This document shows, one piece after another, positions 5,500-22,822 of a stretch of DNA of 33,455 bases (within the stretch, counting starts at the first letter, position 1; each line of letters opens with the position of its first letter). The translations under genes were made by a program, and so were the position numbers. The DNA is taken from NCBI GenBank assembly GCA_007693535.1, contig REDK01000102.1:1-33455 (forward strand). Reading direction: 5' to 3'. Source of the DNA: Chromatiaceae bacterium. GTDB taxonomy: Bacteria > Pseudomonadota > Gammaproteobacteria > Chromatiales > Chromatiaceae. The notes below the pieces were generated by a model. That model ran no database searches and had not been told where the DNA came from. It saw nothing but the letters and a program-made list of their open reading frames with translations.

Positions 5500-8400
5500 T
5501 CAACAGCCTGGCCGCCAGCGCAGATCCAGCGTGTACGGATGTTCGCCGGCCGGCTCCTCCGAGGGCGGATCGATAGCGCCCGGGGTATGGCCCATGAGCC
5601 GGAACCGGGCGATGCGGCGGGTCTCGGCGGCGTAGGCATTGACCGGGAAGCTGTCCTCGCTGCGCCCGCCGGGATGGGCGACATAATAGGTGCAGCCGCC
5701 CAGACTGGCCCGATTCCAGAGATCGACGATATCGAACACCAGTGGATTATGCGATGGGATCGTGGGATGCAGCCCGGAGGGCGGACTCCAGGCCTTGAAC
5801 CGGATCCCGGCGACATATTCGCCCTTGCGGCCGGTGGGATGCAGGGGCAGGCGCCGACCATTGCAGGTGACCGCGTAGCGGGCATCGGTCATTCCCTTGA
5901 CCTTGATCTGCATGCGCTCGACCGATGAGTCCACATAGCGCGCGGTGCCGACCGCGGTGACCTCCTCACCGAGGACATGCCAGGGCTCGATGGCCGCGCG
6001 CAGTTCCATCGCGATGCCATTGCCGGTGATCAGATCGCCGTAATGGGGGAAGCGGAACTCGAAGAAGGGGTCGAACCAGGCTGGATCGAAGGGATAGCCG
6101 GCGCGCTCCAAGTCGCAGAGCACATCGCTAAAGTCCTGGCGCACGAAATGCGGCAACAGGAAACGATCGTGCAATTCCGTGCCCCAGCGGATCGGTACCC
6201 GGGTATAGGGCTGCTTCCAGAAGCGCGCGACCAGCGTGCGCAGCAGCAGTATCTGCGCCAGACTCATGCGCGCATGAGGCGGCATCTCAAAGGCGCGAAA
6301 CTCCACCAATCCTTGCCGGCCGGCGGCGCTGTCCGGCGAGTAGAGCTTGTCGATGCAGAACTCGGTGCGATGGGTATTGCCAGTGACATCCACCAGCAGA
6401 TTGCGCAAGACCCGATCGACGATCCAGGGCTGGCTGACCTGTCCCTTGGGCATCTGCTGGAAGGCGATCGCTAGCTCGTAGAGGCTGTCGTCGCGGGCCT
6501 CGTCCACCCGCGGCGCTTGGCTGGTGGGGCCGATGAAAGTGCCGGAGAAGAGATAGGACAGGCTCGGATGATGCTGCCAATAGGTAATCAGGCTTTGGAT
6601 CAGGTCGGGCCGACGCAGCAGCGGGCTATCGACCGGGGTCGGCCCGCCCAGGGTGACATGATTCCCGCCGCCGGTGCCGGTATGGCGGCCGTCGAGCATG
6701 AACTTCTCGGTGCCAAGCCGCGCCAGGCGCGCCTCTTCGTAGAGGATATTGGTATCGCGCACCAGTTCGTCCCAGGAATAGGCCGGGTGCACGTTGACCT
6801 CGATCACGCCCGGGTCCGGGGTCACCGCCAGCTTTTGCAGACGATGGTCGCGCGGTGGTTCATAGCCTTCGATGATGATCCGCAGGTCAGTCTCGGTGGC
6901 GGTGGCCTCAAGACTGGCGACCAGATCCAGCCAGTGCTCCAGGTGCGTCAGCGGCGGCATGAAGCAATAGAGCCGGCCTTCGCGGGCCTCGATACACAGG
7001 GCGGTGCGCACCAGGTGAGCAGGATAATCATCGGGCAGGCTGACCTGCTCGGTCAGCGGCTGCCGGAGGTCCGGCTGTTCCGGCGCGCGCCCATAGCGCC
7101 GTGCCATCGCGTCCGGGTCAGCCCCCTGCTCCACCAGCGCCTGGCGCGGCAGGTCGCTCTCGGTGATGCGCGAGTAGCGGCGGGCGATCTCGTCATAAGG
7201 CGAGCGCAGCGGCAGCATCGGTTCGAACGGGTCGCGCTGGGGATGGGTGTCCAGCTCTGCATCCGGGACATAGGGCAGCGCATCGAGCGGCAGCCGGAAG
7301 CCCATGGGTGAATCACCGGGGATCAGGAACAGATTGCCGTCGCGCAGGGTCCATTTGCCGCTCACCCAGCCACCACCATGACCAAGTTCGCCACGCTCGG
7401 GCAATGGCGATCCGGCCCAGCGCAGTGGCAGGGCATAACCGACCACCCGGTCCAGCCCCTGGCTGAAGATGCGCGCCACGCGCGCCCGCTCCAGCGGATC
7501 CTTCAGCTTGTTGTCGAAGGGGTCCACGTTGATCGGTAGCCGTGACTCCTTCCACAAGTAATAGAACACATCCTCAAAGGCCGGCTGAGCATGCTCGGGA
7601 CGCACCCCAAGCCTGCGCGCCAGGGTCTCGATAAAGCGCTGCGCCTCGGCCGGACCGGCGCCGTATTGCTCGCGCTCGTCGCCGAAGCGATTTTCGTCCT
7701 GCCAGACCGGCGCGCCATCCTTGCGCCAGTAACAGCCCAGTGCCCAGCGCGGCAATTGTTCCCCCGGATACCATTTACCTTGGCCGATATGCAGCATGCC
7801 GCCGGGGGCAAAGCGGCGCTTGAGCCGCAGCAGCAGGTCCTCGGCCAACAGCTTTTTGGTGGGCCCGAGGGCGGCCGTGTTCCATTCTGCCCCGTCCATA
7901 TCATCAACAGAGACGAAGGTGGGCTCGCCGCCCATGGTCAGGCGCACGTCGTTGGCGGCGAGTTCCGCATCCACCGCATGCCCTAGGGATTCGATCGCGC
8001 GCCATTGCTCCTCGGTATAGGGCTTGGTGACCCGTGGGTCCTCGTGGATGCGCTTGACCCGGTTATGGAAATAGAAATTGACGTCGCACGGATCGGTGGC
8101 CCCGGTGATGGGGGCCGCCGAGACCGGATCGGGGGTGCAAGCGAGCGGTATATGGCCCTCACCGGCGAACAGGCCGGAGGTGGGATCGAGACCGATCCAA
8201 CCGGCCCCGGGCACATAGACCTCGGCCCAGGCGTGCAGATCGGTAAAATCCCGCTCCGGCCCGCTGGGGCCGTCCAGCGATTTCATATCGGCCGTTAGCT
8301 GCACCAGATAGCCGGACACGAAGCGGGCCGCCAGGCCCAGATGACGCAGGATCTGCACCAGTAGCCAGCCGGTATCGCGGCAGGAGCCACGGGCGAGCTT

Positions 8401-8919
8401 CAGGGTCTCCTCGCAGGACTGGATGCCCGGCTCCATGCGGATCACGTAGCCGATGTCCTGCTGCAGCCTCTTGTTGAGGTCGACCAGGAAGTAGACGATC
8501 TCCCGCGGGCTGCGGTCGACACCCGCCAGCCATTCCCCGAGCAGCGGGCCGTCCTCCTTCAGTTCCAGATAGGGGGCGAGTTCCTTGACCAGTTGCGGCT
8601 CATAGGTGAAGGGATAATTGTAGGCGTATTCATCGACAAAGAAATCAAAGGGGTTGATCGTGATCATCTCGGCGATCACGTCCACCTCGACGGTCAGCGC
8701 CTTGGTCTTCTCCGGGAAGACCAACCGTGCCAGGAAGTTGCCGAAGGGGTCCTGCTGCCAGTTGATGAAATGGGTCGCCGGCTCGATGCGCAGGGAATAG
8801 GAGCGGATCGGCGTGCGGCAGTGCGCCGCCGGGCGCAGCCGCACCGTGTGCGGGGCCAGGCCGACCGGGCGGTCGAAGCGGTATTCGGTCTTATGATTGA
8901 TGGCGACGAGGATGGACAT
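5500..8919 (-). CDS. Large transglutaminase-like / DUF2126 protein
   Basis: The 1139-residue product starts with a bacterial transglutaminase-like N-terminal region, followed by a transglutaminase core with a complete Cys-His-Asp triad: Cys180 in RGSCRDTGW, His229 in DLHAWAEVY and Asp245 in GLDPTSG. The remaining roughly 800 residues match the DUF2126 type, with blocks such as LTMGGEPTFVSVDD, GTGGGNHVTLGG and EFRAFEMPPHARM. This is a known fusion in proteobacteria, often encoded with other transglutaminase and alpha-E proteins and with suggested peptide-ligase or protease roles; the substrate is unknown. No such partners are in the window. Start ATG 8919. No signal peptide is visible, so it is probably cytoplasmic. 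It is divergent from the glycosyltransferase gene. Confidence 0.88.
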   Translation of the reverse strand: MSILVAINHKTEYRFDRPVGLAPHTVRLRPAAHCRTPIRSYSLRIEPATHFINWQQDPFGNFLARLVFPEKTKALTVEVDVIAEMITINPFDFFVDEYAYNYPFTYEPQLVKELAPYLELKEDGPLLGEWLAGVDRSPREIVYFLVDLNKRLQQDIGYVIRMEPGIQSCEETLKLARGSCRDTGWLLVQILRHLGLAARFVSGYLVQLTADMKSLDGPSGPERDFTDLHAWAEVYVPGAGWIGLDPTSGLFAGEGHIPLACTPDPVSAAPITGATDPCDVNFYFHNRVKRIHEDPRVTKPYTEEQWRAIESLGHAVDAELAANDVRLTMGGEPTFVSVDDMDGAEWNTAALGPTKKLLAEDLLLRLKRRFAPGGMLHIGQGKWYPGEQLPRWALGCYWRKDGAPVWQDENRFGDEREQYGAGPAEAQRFIETLARRLGVRPEHAQPAFEDVFYYLWKESRLPINVDPFDNKLKDPLERARVARIFSQGLDRVVGYALPLRWAGSPLPERGELGHGGGWVSGKWTLRDGNLFLIPGDSPMGFRLPLDALPYVPDAELDTHPQRDPFEPMLPLRSPYDEIARRYSRITESDLPRQALVEQGADPDAMARRYGRAPEQPDLRQPLTEQVSLPDDYPAHLVRTALCIEAREGRLYCFMPPLTHLEHWLDLVASLEATATETDLRIIIEGYEPPRDHRLQKLAVTPDPGVIEVNVHPAYSWDELVRDTNILYEEARLARLGTEKFMLDGRHTGTGGGNHVTLGGPTPVDSPLLRRPDLIQSLITYWQHHPSLSYLFSGTFIGPTSQAPRVDEARDDSLYELAIAFQQMPKGQVSQPWIVDRVLRNLLVDVTGNTHRTEFCIDKLYSPDSAAGRQGLVEFRAFEMPPHARMSLAQILLLRTLVARFWKQPYTRVPIRWGTELHDRFLLPHFVRQDFSDVLCDLERAGYPFDPAWFDPFFEFRFPHYGDLITGNGIAMELRAAIEPWHVLGEEVTAVGTARYVDSSVERMQIKVKGMTDARYAVTCNGRRLPLHPTGRKGEYVAGIRFKAWSPPSGLHPTIPSHNPLVFDIVDLWNRASLGGCTYYVAHPGGRSEDSFPVNAYAAETRRIARFRLMGHTPGAIDPPSEEPAGEHPYTLDLRWRPGC

Positions 8920-14995: not shown

Positions 14996-15334
14996 TCAGT
15001 AGCCGCCCTTACGCATGACCTCGGGTAAACCAGCGATCTTGGTGCCCTGCTTGGTCGGGGCAAGGGGGAACAGCTTGTAGACATCCTTGCTGGTGGGCTT
15101 ACTGCCCCAGCGCTTGCCGATGTCCTTCAGCAGCGCCCGCTCCATCGGCTGATGCTGATTGTTGTTGAGGTACTCATTGCGCAGGTAATTGATGATGTCC
15201 CAGTGCTGCTCGGTCAGCTCGATACCCTCGGCCGCGGCCAGGACGCGAGCCACGTCTTCGTTCCAGTCCAGCGGGTTGACCAGGTAGCCACTGGCAGTGG
15301 TCTCGATGCTGGTGCCATTGACCTCGATGGCCAT
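14996..15334 (-). CDS. DsrC/TusE/RspA-family protein lacking cysteines
   Basis: The 112-residue protein is clearly of the DsrC fold family: MAIEVNG start, ELTEQHWDIINYLRNEY in the middle, and a C-terminal arm ending KIAGLPEVMRKGGY. DsrC proper has two C-terminal cysteines and TusE keeps one. This protein has no cysteine anywhere, so it cannot carry persulfide or form the DsrC trisulfide. Such cysteine-free paralogues have been called RspA and suggested to be regulatory. ATG 15334 follows AGAGGAG. It has its own terminator and is upstream of cysE. A role linked to sulfur metabolism is inferred from family and context. Confidence 0.88.
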   Translation of the reverse strand: MAIEVNGTSIETTASGYLVNPLDWNEDVARVLAAAEGIELTEQHWDIINYLRNEYLNNNQHQPMERALLKDIGKRWGSKPTSKDVYKLFPLAPTKQGTKIAGLPEVMRKGGY

Positions 15335-15732: not shown

Positions 15733-16437
15733 TCAGTTATGTGACTTAGCGACCGCCTCGATCCCCTTGTGCGGGATGAAGATGCCGCAGCCCATCGCCC
15801 GGTGGGGGCCAAGCCCCTGGCGTTGCAGCCGCAGCGATTCCTCCGCGGTGAGATTGGCCAGCAGCAGGCTGCGGGTCGGGATCGGGCCAGCGGGCGTGTT
15901 CAGGGCCGTGGTCTTACCGCACAGGGCCTTGCGAATGCGGATACCCATGCTGGCAAGTTCGGCCGCTGCCCAGGTGAGAAACGCATCCTCGGTCTCCACC
16001 GCCGCGGGCCTGGCGGCAGCGGCGACGACATAGCGGGCAAACAGGGTCGTCTCCCGACTGAGCGGGCGTTCCTTGCCACGACCGATATGCAGCGGGCAAC
16101 CGGCAACCTCCAGATCCTGCTCTTCCAGCGCAGATTTCAGCGTAGCCAGGCGCGCCCGCGGGACCCGGATCGCTAGCCGGGTCCGCCGCGACAGCAACAG
16201 GTGCTGACCACTAGCGGCCGCCGGTCGCTCCCAGCCGTTCTGCGAGCCGGCCACATGCACAGTATGCACTGCGCATTCCGGCGTACCCTCCAACCAAGGG
16301 GCCAGCCGCAACAGGGCCTGCGACAGACCCCAGGCATGATCGACCGGCAACGACCGGCACTGCAGCGAGAACAGGACATCGACCACGTCATCCGGGATCG
16401 CGACGGCGGTCTCTTCGGGGGATTCTTGCCAGAACAT
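15733..16437 (-). CDS. Stand-alone Cas6/Cmx6-family (type I-MYXAN Cas6-like) protein
   Basis: The 234-residue protein has an N-terminal block VLFSLQCRSLPVDHAWGLS (residues 21-39), matching the conserved VPVDHGY-like start of Cmx6 proteins, and a C-terminal NLTAEESLRLQ followed by a glycine-rich loop GLGPHRAMGCGIF (208-220), as in Cas6 RAMP-fold endoribonucleases. Cas6 enzymes bind and cut CRISPR repeat hairpins. Here there is no CRISPR array and no other cas gene in 33 kb, so a CRISPR role is not supported locally. His34 is a candidate catalytic residue but this is inferred. It is the last gene of a three-gene minus-strand cluster divergent from the dsr operon. The family call is fairly firm; the function is unknown. 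Confidence 0.75.
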   Translation of the reverse strand: MFWQESPEETAVAIPDDVVDVLFSLQCRSLPVDHAWGLSQALLRLAPWLEGTPECAVHTVHVAGSQNGWERPAAASGQHLLLSRRTRLAIRVPRARLATLKSALEEQDLEVAGCPLHIGRGKERPLSRETTLFARYVVAAAARPAAVETEDAFLTWAAAELASMGIRIRKALCGKTTALNTPAGPIPTRSLLLANLTAEESLRLQRQGLGPHRAMGCGIFIPHKGIEAVAKSHN

Positions 16438-16532
16438 CAGCCAACTCGACGGTCACGGATTGGGGGGGTCTCGGGGTGGCGGGAGCAGGCAGCGGCCACG
16501 GGGCCAGCGACCGGACTGATCACCGCATCGGT

Positions 16533-17246
16533 TCAAGGCAGCCGGTCCTGCAGGGCGGCGCGATCGAACCACCAATTGTCCTGCACCAGTACATCGACCA
16601 CGTTGCGCAGGCGCACCAGGAAGCGGTCGGGTTCACGCAGTTCGAGGCGATCGAGCCAGGCGTCGAAGGCCTGCTGGTCAGCCACTCCGCTGTGACGGCG
16701 GGCGACATCCCCGAGCAGGCGCGCGGTGAAGAAGGTCAGATTCTCGCGCTGGGTCCCCTCGGCGCGCAGGTCGGCTAGGAAGAGCGCCGTCGTCGCCGCC
16801 ACCGCTGCACCGTCGGCATTATCCGGGGTCTCGTCGATCACATGCGAGAGCAATTCGATCGATAGCTCCACGTCGATCGGATAAGTGACCGCCAGCCAGA
16901 TCCCCTGACCCAAGGCACTGAGCGACTCCGGCTGCTCGGCCCGGAACAGGACATCGCAGCAGTCGGCGGCCGACTCGAAGTCTTCGACCGCGATGAAGGC
17001 ACCGAAGGCCTCGCGCCCAAGCCCCCAGGCCTCGCTCCCGCGCCCCAGCCCGGCCAAGGTCCGAGCCATCTGCAGGCGGATGGAGGCAAGCTTGACCTGA
17101 TCGGCACCAATACGCCGCAGGGTGGCGTACTGGTCCTCCAGGATCAGCAGATGGGATTCCAGCGCGGCGACCTCGCTGTTGCGCCCGACGATCGAGTCGG
17201 CAGCGGTATCGTTGAGACGGCTGGGACTGACTGAATAATGCTTCAT
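16533..17246 (-). CDS. Conserved-looking alpha-helical (TPR-like) protein of unknown function
   Basis: The 237-residue product is predicted almost wholly helical. Stretches such as LASIRLQMARTLAGLGRGSEAWGL and FESAADCCDVLF have the small-residue spacing of tetratricopeptide-like helical repeats, but no repeat is perfect. It has no signal peptide or membrane segment and looks cytoplasmic. An acidic, Trp-containing C-terminal part (VDVLVQDNWWFDRAAL) follows. I do not recognise a named family. It lies between the 63-residue gene and the Cas6-like gene on the same strand with spacers of 195 and 95 bases, which suggests a shared function. ATG 17246 has a weak ribosome binding site. Confidence 0.72.
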   Translation of the reverse strand: MKHYSVSPSRLNDTAADSIVGRNSEVAALESHLLILEDQYATLRRIGADQVKLASIRLQMARTLAGLGRGSEAWGLGREAFGAFIAVEDFESAADCCDVLFRAEQPESLSALGQGIWLAVTYPIDVELSIELLSHVIDETPDNADGAAVAATTALFLADLRAEGTQRENLTFFTARLLGDVARRHSGVADQQAFDAWLDRLELREPDRFLVRLRNVVDVLVQDNWWFDRAALQDRLP

Positions 17247-17280
17247 AGCGGGTATCCGGAACGTCGGTGTGACGGTAAGT

Positions 17281-17306
17281 CGGCGACTCAGTGACGCGGC
17301 GACTCA
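17281..17306. repeat. 10-bp direct repeat upstream of the TPR-like gene
   Basis: CGGCGACTCA occurs at 17281-17290 and again at 17297-17306, 16 bases apart, 35 bases upstream of the minus-strand start at 17246. It could be a regulator binding site or chance. Confidence 0.35.
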
Positions 17307-17441
17307 AGGGGGACAGTACAGCGGCGCGCCGCGCTCTGTTCGCGCGGACGTGCGACCGGCGGCGGTCCCCACGCAGCGGGCTGACCGCCCGGGACAACCA
17401 CGACAGCAGCAGCCAAGCCGGCGAGCAATACCGGGGACGAC

Positions 17442-17633
17442 CTAACGAATCAGGCCACTGAATGCCGCCTCAAGCCGGTCCTCCCAGTTGTCCGGGGTAT
17501 CCGGAAACGGCGGCTTCACGTCCATGCGAAAGAATCGCTCGCCCTGGCGTGCCACGTCTTGCACCGCGGCTGCCAGTTCGTCGAAGGATTCGATCTCTTT
17601 ATGGGCTACCAGGATGTCGCTCAACTTCAGCAT
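17442..17633 (-). CDS. Small 63-residue protein of unknown function
   Basis: The protein begins MLKLSDILVAHKEIESFDEL, has an amphipathic helical middle, and ends with an acidic PDTPDNWEDRLEAAFSGL segment. It has no cysteine, signal peptide or membrane segment. Normal-looking amino-acid composition, and its position as first gene of the minus-strand cluster ahead of the TPR-like and Cas6-like genes, support it as real. It is divergent from the dsr promoter region. No family is recognised. Confidence 0.65.
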   Translation of the reverse strand: MLKLSDILVAHKEIESFDELAAAVQDVARQGERFFRMDVKPPFPDTPDNWEDRLEAAFSGLIR

Positions 17634-18029: not shown

Positions 18030-18350
18030 AGCCGATCGCCGGCCCTGACTGCTTACTCCAGGGCCTTGAACAACAAAGCAAAACAAAATACATCAGGCGC
18101 TTTGTCAACTATCCCATTGGGGATATTCGCGCGCCCCTCCCCCCCCGAAGGTGTAGTACCGGCGCGCAGTTCTGATGCGTATAGTCTCTGGCGACAGCGG
18201 ATGCAGCCGACTGAGTACACCGCGGGAACTGCCGGGACAACCCCCGGGACCCGAGCGTTCGGGCGGCGCGATGACAAGGGGACTAGCCCCCGGCTGGACC
18301 GGTACCGGTCAACAGTTCGGCTCACTCGGTCTAAGGCCACCCCCTAGAGT

Positions 18351-18504: not shown

Positions 18505-19761
18505 ATGGCAATCGATAAGCATCAGACCCCGATGATCGACCAGCTCGAGGACGGGCCCTGGCCGAGCTTCATCTCCGGCATCAAGCGCCTGCGCGACGAA
18601 CATCCGAGCGAGCGCATCAATGCCATGACCAACGACCTGCTCGGTCAGCTCGAGCACTCCTACGAGACCCGCAAAGGCTACTGGAAGGGTGGTACCGTCT
18701 CGGTCTACGGCTACGGCGGCGGCATCATTCCGCGCTTCTCCGAGGTCGGCAAGGCCTTCCCCAAGTCGAGGGAATTCCACACCCTGCGCGTGCAACCGCC
18801 GGCCGGTAACCACTACACGACGCAAATGCTGCGGCAACTCGCCGATAGCTGGGAGAAGCACGGCTCCGGGTTGGTCACCTTCCATGGCCAGACCGGTAAC
18901 ATCATGTTTATTGGGGCCGATACCCAGGCCACCCAACATTTCTTCGACGAGATCAACGAATACGGCTTCGACCTCGGTGGTGCCGGTCCCTGCGTGCGCA
19001 CGGCCATGTCCTGCGTTGGCGCTGCTCGCTGCGAGATGTCCTGCACCAACGAGTTGAAGGCCCACCGGATGCTGGTCAACAACTTCGTCGACGATGTGCA
19101 CCGCCCGGCGCTGCCCTACAAGTTCAAGTTCAAGGTCTCCGGCTGCGCCAACGACTGTCAGAACGCCATCGAGCGTTCCGACTTCGCAGTCCTCGGCACC
19201 TGGCGCGACGACATGAAAGTGGACCAGGACGAGGTGAAGGCCTACGTCAAGAAGAAGGGTCGCCAGTACGTCATCGACAACGTCATCACTCGCTGTCCCA
19301 CCCAGGCCCTGTCGCTGAACGACGACGACACCCTCGCCGTCAATAACCGCGACTGCGTGCGCTGCATGCACTGCCTCAATGTCATGCCCAAGGCCCTGCA
19401 TCCGGGTGACGACAAGGGCGTGACCATCCTCATCGGTGGTAAGCGCACGCTGAAGATCGGCGATCTGATGGGCACCGTCATCGTGCCATTCAAGAAGCTG
19501 GATACCGAGGAAGACTACGAGGAGATGGTGGAGCTAGCCGAGACCATCATCGACTTCTGGGCCGAGAACGGCCTGGAGCACGAACGCTGCGGCGAGATGA
19601 TCGAGCGCATTGGCCTGGCCAACTTCCTCGAAGGCATCGGCATCGAACCCGACCCGAACATGCTGAACCATCCGCGCCAGTCCTCCTATGTCCGCATGGA
19701 TGACTGGGACGAGGCGGCCGAACAATGGTTCGAGCGGCAGGCCGAAAAGGCCGCGGGCTGA
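18505..19761 (+). CDS. dsrA: Dissimilatory sulfite reductase alpha subunit (reverse type)
   Basis: The 418-residue protein matches DsrA in length and motifs. The siroheme-[4Fe-4S] ligands lie in CVGAARCEMSC and GCANDCQNA. The inserted ferredoxin domain follows, with TRCPTQAL and DCVRCMHCLNVMPKAL. With DsrB it forms the cytoplasmic alpha2beta2 siroheme enzyme. In sulfur oxidisers with dsrEFH and dsrL it runs in the oxidative direction, converting the sulfur carried by DsrC to sulfite. GGGAG and GAGACAGC precede ATG 18505. It is the first gene of the operon. The spacer to dsrB is 91 bases and includes a hairpin. Confidence 0.98.
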   Translation: MAIDKHQTPMIDQLEDGPWPSFISGIKRLRDEHPSERINAMTNDLLGQLEHSYETRKGYWKGGTVSVYGYGGGIIPRFSEVGKAFPKSREFHTLRVQPPAGNHYTTQMLRQLADSWEKHGSGLVTFHGQTGNIMFIGADTQATQHFFDEINEYGFDLGGAGPCVRTAMSCVGAARCEMSCTNELKAHRMLVNNFVDDVHRPALPYKFKFKVSGCANDCQNAIERSDFAVLGTWRDDMKVDQDEVKAYVKKKGRQYVIDNVITRCPTQALSLNDDDTLAVNNRDCVRCMHCLNVMPKALHPGDDKGVTILIGGKRTLKIGDLMGTVIVPFKKLDTEEDYEEMVELAETIIDFWAENGLEHERCGEMIERIGLANFLEGIGIEPDPNMLNHPRQSSYVRMDDWDEAAEQWFERQAEKAAG

Positions 19762-19784
19762 TCCCGGCTTCAACGGCGGTCACC

Positions 19785-19807
19785 GGTGCCGGCCCGGTTC
19801 CGGCACC
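19785..19807 (+). other. Intercistronic hairpin dsrA-dsrB
   Basis: GGTGCCGG (19785-19792) pairs perfectly with CCGGCACC (19800-19807) around a 7-base loop. There is no U-tract, so RNA stabilisation or processing is likelier than termination. Confidence 0.5.
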
Positions 19808-19852
19808 CGCCACACCAGCATAGCAATCGTCTAAAGACCTGGAGGACAAGCG

Positions 19853-22197: not shown

Positions 22198-22530
22198 ATG
22201 CCGATCGAAGTCAATGGCAAGTCCTTCGAAACCGACGAAGAGGGCTACCTGGCCAACATCAACGACTGGGAGCCCGGCGTGGCCTCGGTCATGGCCAAGG
22301 AAGACGACCTGGAGCTAACCGACGAACACTGGGACATCATCAACTTCCTGCGCGAGTACTACGAGGAGTATCAGATTGCTCCCGCGGTGCGCGTACTGAC
22401 CAAGGCGGTCGGCAAGAAGATGGGCAAGGACAAGGGCAACAGCAAGTATCTCTATGGGCTGTTCCCTTACGGACCGGCCAAGCAAGCCTGCCGCTACGCT
22501 GGCCTACCCAAGCCGACCGGTTGCGTCTGA
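22198..22530 (+). CDS. dsrC: Sulfur carrier protein DsrC
   Basis: The 110-residue protein has the DsrC fold (LTDEHWDIINFLREYY) and the flexible C-terminal arm with both redox cysteines, Cys98 and Cys109, in the CX10C arrangement (KQACRYAGLPKPTGCV). It accepts sulfur from DsrEFH, presents it to DsrAB, and is oxidised and reduced via DsrK. AGGAGA precedes ATG 22198. A strong hairpin follows in the long spacer to dsrM, as could fit the separate high expression of dsrC known in related organisms. Confidence 0.98.
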   Translation: MPIEVNGKSFETDEEGYLANINDWEPGVASVMAKEDDLELTDEHWDIINFLREYYEEYQIAPAVRVLTKAVGKKMGKDKGNSKYLYGLFPYGPAKQACRYAGLPKPTGCV

Positions 22531-22594
22531 GGTTCCCGATCCGGGCCGTGCCGTCAGCCCCCACCGGGGGGCAGCCGGCGGACGTCACCGGCAT

Positions 22595-22620
22595 GGCCAG
22601 CAGACGTCGCTCTGCTGGCC
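22595..22620 (+). other. Hairpin in the dsrC-dsrM spacer
   Basis: GGCCAGCAG (22595-22603) pairs perfectly with CTGCTGGCC (22612-22620) around an 8-base loop, in the 292-base spacer between dsrC and dsrM. No T-run follows. A role in partial termination or in 3'-end stabilisation of a dsrC message is plausible. Confidence 0.55.
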
Positions 22621-22822
22621 GTGCCTGGCCAGGTTCAGCCCAGGTGCCGCACCCGATCGATCATCGCTGTGTAAACCAGCGTCAGCCAGATTGGCTACCC
22701 TGAGACAGCACAGCTCGCCGCATTGTCGCGCCAGCAGGTCGATGAGCTAACCAAGAGCCTGCGCCCGCCGCTGGTCCCGGCTGCCGGGCACCTGCCGCCA
22801 GCATCATCGAGGAAGCGAAAGC

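Follow-up and report, generated by a model that had tools for sequence, protein, structure and literature searches.

Why would a gene for an enzyme of CRISPR (clustered regularly interspaced short palindromic repeats) immunity lie beside an operon for sulfur oxidation? This question is raised by a stretch of DNA from a Chromatiaceae bacterium of the Gammaproteobacteria (assembly GCA_007693535.1, contig REDK01000102.1, positions 1 to 33,455), here called the window, by which we mean the whole 33,455 nucleotides that were analysed. In it a gene for a Cas6-family protein of 234 amino acids (15733-16437, minus strand) is transcribed divergently from the dsr operon, whose first gene, dsrA, lies at 18505-19761 on the plus strand (NIR_SIR domains; TIGR02064, 656 bits). 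An earlier interpretation made from the DNA letters alone, hereafter the sequence-only reading, had offered two explanations, recruitment of Cas6 for cellular RNA processing or membership of a distant CRISPR locus. The former is strongly favoured by our results, as the gene tracks dsr and not CRISPR, its cluster is conserved and about half of its carriers have no cas1 match, and the latter is very improbable; that the protein processes RNA is what we infer from its conserved residues. We consider it probable that a Cas6-family RNA endonuclease departed from CRISPR and is now a permanent accessory of the oxidative Dsr (reverse dissimilatory sulfite reductase) pathway in Gammaproteobacteria, presumably as a post-transcriptional factor.

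The cas6 gene accompanies dsrA

Judged by its sequence, the 234-amino-acid protein is firmly placed in the Cas6 family. The Pfam search gave PF09559 at 212.5 bits against a cut-off of 26.7 (E 7e-63), the NCBIfam model TIGR02807 (cmx6) was passed narrowly (103.9 bits against 98.85), and eight Cas6 models of PADLOC match, five of them with E < 1e-18. In an even draw of 274 genomes from the Gammaproteobacteria, the class sample, profile searches found cas6 (PF09559) in 91 and dsrA over the cut-off in 87, and seven further genomes hold dsrA as pieces (six of at least 200 bits; G270, 114 bits). With these pieces counted, both genes are present in 87 genomes, cas6 only in four, dsrA only in seven and neither in 176 (Fisher p 1.9e-57), that is, dsrA is found in 87/91 cas6 carriers and cas6 in 87/94 dsrA genomes. 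The co-occurrence with dsr that the sequence-only reading proposed to look for is thus nearly strict. The same table reads 87, 4, 6 and 177 without G270, and 82, 9, 5 and 178 if full-length dsrA only is counted. In 65 of the 91 carriers the two genes lie within 10 kb of each other on one contig, and all 65 pairs are divergent, with 662-4511 bp between them. Since the gene is found with dsr genes in nearly every case, it probably serves energy metabolism and not immunity.

The exceptions are mostly contig ends. In five of the seven genomes with dsrA only (G103, G112, G143, G156 and G239) the dsrA contig stops before the usual place of cas6, for G112 as read from coordinates only, and in G270 its end looks alike, again judged by coordinates; the seventh, G243, is a real gap and is taken up below. 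The four carriers without dsrA are G100, G126 and G160, whose contigs end on the dsr side, and G218.

The link is also seen beyond this draw. A phylum sample of 299 genomes, which shares genomes with the class sample and for which the dsrA threshold was E <= 1e-50, contains PF09559 in four genomes and dsrA in 52. These carriers coincide exactly with the four genomes of the window's class that have dsrA, namely its own genome and three new ones; the latter, taken by us for beta lineages, have cas6 immediately divergent from dsrA. Among relatives (55 genomes including the window's own, 34 of them from its family) cas6 is carried by 37; as many as 32 of the 34 family genomes have one gene each, that of G020 being in two pieces, and G008 and G019 lack it. 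Allochromatium warmingii, A. palmeri and A. humboldtianum are among the species that have the gene. A search of a phage collection with the query P0001 gave zero matches. Within the class, then, the gene is present where dsr is and is linked to it, as would be expected of an accessory of the Dsr system.

Six genomes of the class (G115, G188, G179, G228, G088 and G250) possess a second dsrA locus (L246-L251). None of these loci, one of which (L249) is cut upstream, has Cas6, or the p3 gene or oxygenase gene described below, and the six genomes hold the cas6 cluster at their other dsrA. Most of the second loci include dsrB, and no dsrEFH matches were found near them.

The cas6 gene does not follow CRISPR

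The absence of a CRISPR array from the window, as claimed by the sequence-only reading, was confirmed by a scan for short spaced exact repeats that did detect arrays in two other contigs of the same genome (L187 and L188). A repeat near cas6 in a related locus (L199) was considered as an array and dismissed, as it falls inside a coding frame. Nor does cas6 have the neighbours of type I-MYXAN systems (cas3, cmx8 or cas8, cas7, cas5 and an array); its recurring neighbours are dsr, the genes of two conserved proteins termed p2 and p3, a DsrC-like gene and a TauD-like gene. A match to the adaptation protein Cas1 (PF01867) was obtained for 43 of the 91 carriers of the class sample and for none of the other 48; among the carriers of the window's family 8/32 are free of Cas1. 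The DevR-family Cas7 (PF01905), a partner in I-MYXAN operons, was absent from all of 20 carriers searched, a result that adds little because 19 of them had been chosen for having no Cas1. The Cas10 model PF22335 matched 34 of the 48 Cas1-free carriers, 15 of them over the cut-off, which an E. coli control exceeded too, probably via GGDEF domains, and the model is thus uninformative here.

The window's genome itself is not devoid of CRISPR. Three other contigs (L187, L188 and L189) carry loci of types I-C, I-G and III-B, and Cas1 is present on three contigs, in each case of a type other than I-MYXAN. The I-C contig has an array and Cas1 of its own type, and type I-C uses Cas5; the I-G locus has an array together with its own fused Cas5-Cas6. 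No Cas6 was seen in 10 kb around the III-B (Cmr) locus. The sequence-only reading would have held against recruitment an array elsewhere in the genome whose repeats are cut by this protein; arrays do exist there, those of the I-C and I-G loci. Occasional help of the dsr-linked Cas6 to the III-B locus of its own genome is possible, and this cannot be the reason for the link with dsr or for the distribution of the gene.

Conserved residues and relationship to CRISPR-linked Cas6

Cas6 proteins are built of two ferredoxin-like (RRM) domains and cleave RNA at a hairpin independently of metal, a histidine in the N-terminal part acting as general base. The sequence-only reading had recognised the window's protein by a PVDH motif and a glycine-rich loop, and both are borne out by an alignment of 85 dsr-linked rows (79 distinct genes), 7 CRISPR-linked rows and one lone protein from Gloeobacter, with truncated sequences excluded. 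The dsr-linked rows derive from the family set, the best 30 of the 91 class matches, 17 chosen loci and three further carriers. His34 of the PVDH motif is present in all 85 of them, in all six CRISPR-linked rows that have a residue at this position and in the Gloeobacter row, and each of the glycines G208, G210, G216 and G218 of the C-terminal loop is kept in at least 83/85. These glycines as well as R91, R135, Q205 and F220 are common to dsr-linked and cas-operon Cas6, apart from a Met at G216 in one CRISPR-linked row.

Other features set the dsr-linked proteins apart. An insert with W69, R71 and P72 is found in 82 of their 85 rows and is absent from all CRISPR-linked rows and from the Gloeobacter row, and E150 and G174 are confined to the dsr lineage, as are H58 and R85 apart from one and two CRISPR-linked rows, respectively, that have them too. 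In a quick maximum-likelihood tree the dsr-linked rows all fall on one side of a long branch, apart from the CRISPR-linked ones (Shimodaira-Hasegawa-like approximate likelihood ratio test, SH-aLRT, 98). As the root of this tree is not known, the direction from CRISPR to dsr is assumed only.

The nearest known relatives are the Cas6/Cmx6 proteins of type I-MYXAN (PF09559, TIGR02807), such as those on plasmids of Synechocystis PCC 6714 and Nostoc CENA543. They share with the window's protein the family, the His of the DH motif, R91, R135, Q205 and the glycine-rich loop, yet are only about 26% identical to it, lack the W69-P72 insert and lie in cas operons (cas3, cmx8 or cas8, cas7, cas5), whereas the window's gene has no cas neighbour. 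Eight of 14 records of such relatives were inspected, the other six being weak or partial matches, and seven of the eight, on cyanobacterial plasmids, lie with cas genes. The Gloeobacter one does not: on a Gloeobacter morelensis plasmid (L230:5974-6765) a lone Cas6/Cmx6 occurs in a 12.6-kb stretch with no annotated cas genes, close to a gene of the phosphoadenosine-phosphosulfate-reductase family, a cupin and hypothetical genes. By sequence (E <= 1) the sole relatives of solved structure that were found are Cas6 proteins of type I-B CRISPR, namely 8fcj_B (E 4.5e-7, residues 11-223) and five further entries. Different from the window's protein, 8fcj_B is a named part of a CRISPR system, which we take to be a CRISPR-transposon, and has an Asn opposite His34.

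A conserved cluster of four genes

In the window the minus strand carries from 17633 down to 14996, in a row and reading away from the dsr operon, p3 (17442-17633), p2 (16533-17246), cas6 and a gene for a DsrC-like protein (14996-15334). The sequence-only reading had described a three-gene cluster; its three members are real and lie where it had placed them, and its count was one short, as the DsrC-family gene belongs to the cluster too. The order p3-p2-cas6-DsrC-like is conserved among relatives. In a set of 37 loci, the window and 36 stretches around Cas6 matches, the neighbourhood of dsrA and p3 could be measured in 30, that of p3 and p2 in 31, that of p2 and cas6 in 32 and that of cas6 and the DsrC-like gene in 29. 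The lack of conservation that would have spoken against recruitment was not found. In six pairs of relatives, which do not include the window's own genes, the ratio of nonsynonymous to synonymous substitution rates was 0.07-0.18 for cas6, 0.03-0.10 for p2 and 0-0.08 for p3, values that mark all three as conserved and subject to purifying selection. The DsrC-like gene is under purifying selection as well in the five usable pairs, L041/L042 having been left out as their copies are non-equivalent (that of L042 is a canonical dsrC).

The two partners match nothing recognised, as the sequence-only reading had it: the window's p2 (237 amino acids) and p3 (63 amino acids) gave no match in Pfam, NCBIfam or PADLOC at E <= 1. 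Its description of p2 as TPR-like could not be upheld, since of 24 members of this family a single one reaches each of two TPR models, with E values of 0.32 and 0.77. Matches of p2 to SlyX, Cse2, TPR and other models are scattered over one or two of the 24 members each (best E 0.005), and none of these assignments was retained. The p2 gene occurs in 71 of the 274 genomes of the class sample, each of which also has cas6; at 20 loci where p2 is separate from cas6 the neighbours are variable and give no functional clue. The p3 protein shows 14 invariant columns in 21 sequences and has KPPFPDTPxxWEDRLEAAF in its C-terminal part.

The fourth protein (112 amino acids; TIGR03342, 104 bits) belongs to the DsrC/TusE/RspA family and has a C-terminal arm that ends in RKGGY. 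Unlike DsrC proper, which is marked by two Cys in this arm, it lacks both. The last 20 residues are Cys-free in all 27 DsrC-like proteins of more than 95 amino acids encoded less than 1 kb from cas6 (shorter or misassigned picks were dropped), whereas all 50 complete copies of canonical DsrC have two Cys in the last 14 residues. The window's canonical dsrC lies within the dsr operon (22198-22530, plus strand; TIGR03342, 169 bits). The fourth protein is presumably what is called RspA-like, a name for which our literature search gave no relevant paper. The excerpt of PMC5944118 lists a DsrC-like gene, THSYN_22565, that by its tag is a few genes past the dsr cluster.

Of 20 loci compared, 13 have a gene for a TauD-like oxygenase flanking the cluster towards dsr; past the DsrC-like gene come more conserved genes. 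An example of the oxygenase gene is L202:5874-6767, with relatives; in the window no such gene stands between dsrA and p3. Five dsrA loci of another class, taken to be Alphaproteobacteria, are instructive here (L241-L245). In four of them (L241 and L243-L245) p3 and the oxygenase gene are divergent from dsrA, and Cas6 is replaced by a protein of 71-74 amino acids (for example L243:6339-6563 and L244:6481-6696); a siroheme-synthase-like gene, recognised by eye, likewise occupies its place in L243-L245. The fifth, L242, shows neither oxygenase nor p3 within the 1.1 kb of sequence available. The small genes of L243 and L244 had been grouped with Cas6 by automatic clustering, and inspection showed a different protein. 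Because the four loci have both p3 and the oxygenase without Cas6, these two seem to have been with dsr for longer, and Cas6 to have been added in the Gammaproteobacteria.

Search for an RNA target and a probable operator

If Cas6 acts on RNA, where is its target? Strong stem-loops of differing sequence follow dsrA (window 19762-19852) and dsrC (22531-22822) in many dsr operons. As a Cas6-specific target the hairpins between dsrA and dsrB and between dsrC and dsrM were rejected, for they also occur in loci of another class that have no Cas6, and several carriers do not have them.

The DNA separating the two divergent operons contains a palindrome, TATCCC-N4-GGGATA (18110-18125), that is shared by much of the family. 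There are 27 exact sites in 24 of the 55 genomes of the relatives set and none of the reversed pattern used as control. Going by coordinates, the dsr locus accounts for 20 of the sites, and seven are elsewhere or unclear (G010, G013 twice, G015, G023, G030, G043), the latter being about what is expected by chance (0.13 per genome of such size and composition). Could this be a hairpin in the dsrA leader and the substrate of Cas6? A stem of 6 bp with a variable loop of 4 nucleotides, present as one exact copy in each of the eight genomes of the window's genus, at the dsr locus, would suit such a role, and this was our first reading. However, in 29 loci with enough upstream DNA, where the palindrome is exact in 19 and has at most one change in 26, the substitutions on the dsrA strand amount to 4 wobbles and 7 mismatches with no compensatory pair, and they break pairing on either strand, as expected for a site read as DNA. 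A set of 11 further loci, two of which repeat the first set, has two exact sites and five within one change, with 3 wobbles, 4 mismatches and one compensatory pair. The palindrome is, moreover, absent from three further carriers outside the main gammaproteobacterial set (L233-L235), and from the five other-class loci. We hence dropped the hairpin, to which we now give hardly any credence; by its pattern of substitution the palindrome is probably a DNA operator, for which one would expect a regulator of its own. Further upstream is a possible dsrA promoter with a TAATATT box, and in the genus this box also precedes the DsrC-like gene. For Allochromatium vinosum, the portions consulted of two papers report that DsrC binds DNA upstream of dsr (PMC5944118) and that dsrC has an additional promoter (PMC3368242).

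What might Cas6 do for the Dsr system?

With its presumed catalytic His and its glycine-rich loop in place, the protein most likely continues to cut RNA, and as the gene follows dsr, the RNA in question should serve sulfur oxidation. We accordingly suggest that it works as a post-transcriptional factor within the Dsr system. Cas6 would bind, and probably cut, a specific RNA hairpin and would thereby set the amount or the processing of sulfur-oxidation RNAs, the likeliest substrates being the transcripts of the two divergent operons, dsr and cas6. The Cys-less DsrC-like protein, p2 and p3 may assist as partners, by sensing the state of sulfur or by guiding the enzyme. As a possible though doubtful extension, which we offer tentatively, the sulfur oxidizers of the whole class may depend for reverse dissimilatory sulfite reduction on this domesticated CRISPR ribonuclease and its processing of cellular RNA, the enzyme having taken on a housekeeping role in core energy metabolism with the Cys-less DsrC paralogue as sulfur sensor.

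Several observations weigh against the view of Cas6 as a fixed accessory of the Dsr pathway. One cas6-dsrA pair of the class sample is 41 kb apart and 21 are on different contigs. G243 possesses dsrA with more than 10 kb of sequence upstream and no Cas6 anywhere in its genome; in G120 of the same genus Cas6 is present, on a contig other than that of dsrA. In the phylum sample PF09559 is absent from all 48 dsrA genomes of other classes, and Cas6 is therefore not needed by the Dsr pathway as such and is not essential to it in general. Cas1 is slightly more common in carriers (43/91) than in non-carriers (62/183; p 0.035). Finally, hairpin and Rfam searches yielded no RNA target: a conserved hairpin restricted to Cas6 carriers did not emerge, and Rfam gave no match at E <= 1 in window 13000-33455.

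Would a Cas6 that acts in trans for arrays elsewhere, for example for type III loci without a cas6 of their own, account for these data, its position at dsr being an old accident? The slight excess of cas1 among carriers fits this idea, as does the III-B locus that the window's genome contains besides its I-C and I-G contigs, with no Cas6 seen nearby, and most type III loci apparently use Cas6 in trans, as stated in an excerpt of PMC12669027. Then again, 48 of the 91 carriers gave no Cas1 match, presence of the gene tracks dsrA almost one to one and not CRISPR, and the dsr-linked group has invariant residues and a branch of its own, all of which makes this explanation very improbable. Alternatively, the protein may no longer cut and may act as an RNA-binding regulator, a switch of translation or stability that attaches to one hairpin, located perhaps in the leader of its own gene or of dsr. 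The lineage-specific insert with W69, R71 and P72 together with E150 and G174 does suggest a new surface for RNA or protein; loss of cutting would, however, not have been expected to leave the presumed general-base His and most loop glycines in place, and we regard a regulator of this kind as unlikely.

The usual next gene might hint at yet another function. Being of the TusE/DsrC family, its product could join Cas6 in tRNA thiolation, or act with it on tRNA while sulfur is being oxidised. The part of PMC3397948 at hand describes an interaction of the DsrC relative TusE with MnmA, a tRNA enzyme, and a resemblance of DsrEFH to TusBCD. Since this neighbour is without the cysteines used in sulfur transfer, however, such a tRNA or sulfur-relay factor appears quite unlikely to us.

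Significance and relation to known systems

Cas6 is known as the cutter of CRISPR transcripts, and here a single gene of this family tracks an energy operon through many families and ignores CRISPR. If our proposal is true, this would be an unambiguous example of a Cas enzyme co-opted for ordinary cell physiology and would provide a candidate control factor for the oxidation of stored sulfur in purple and other sulfur bacteria. A Cas6 match in such genomes should accordingly not be counted as CRISPR. Repurposed cas genes have been described in Streptomyces, where according to the accessible part of PMC8730458 cas5-cas6-cas7-cas8 are kept with a STAND NTPase and without array or adaptation genes. 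That module differs in that it comprises several effector subunits and has a predicted role in defence, as opposed to Cas6 alone at a metabolic operon. No description of a dsr-linked or CRISPR-free Cas6 was found by our literature search, as far as titles, opening lines of abstracts and the excerpts retrieved go, and the portions consulted of PMC10952691, PMC7540712, PMC5728499, PMC11636981, PMC8232776 and PMC11406059 describe none.

Elsewhere in the window, at 5500-8919 on the minus strand, a protein of 1139 amino acids with transglutaminase and DUF2126 amidoligase domains is encoded.

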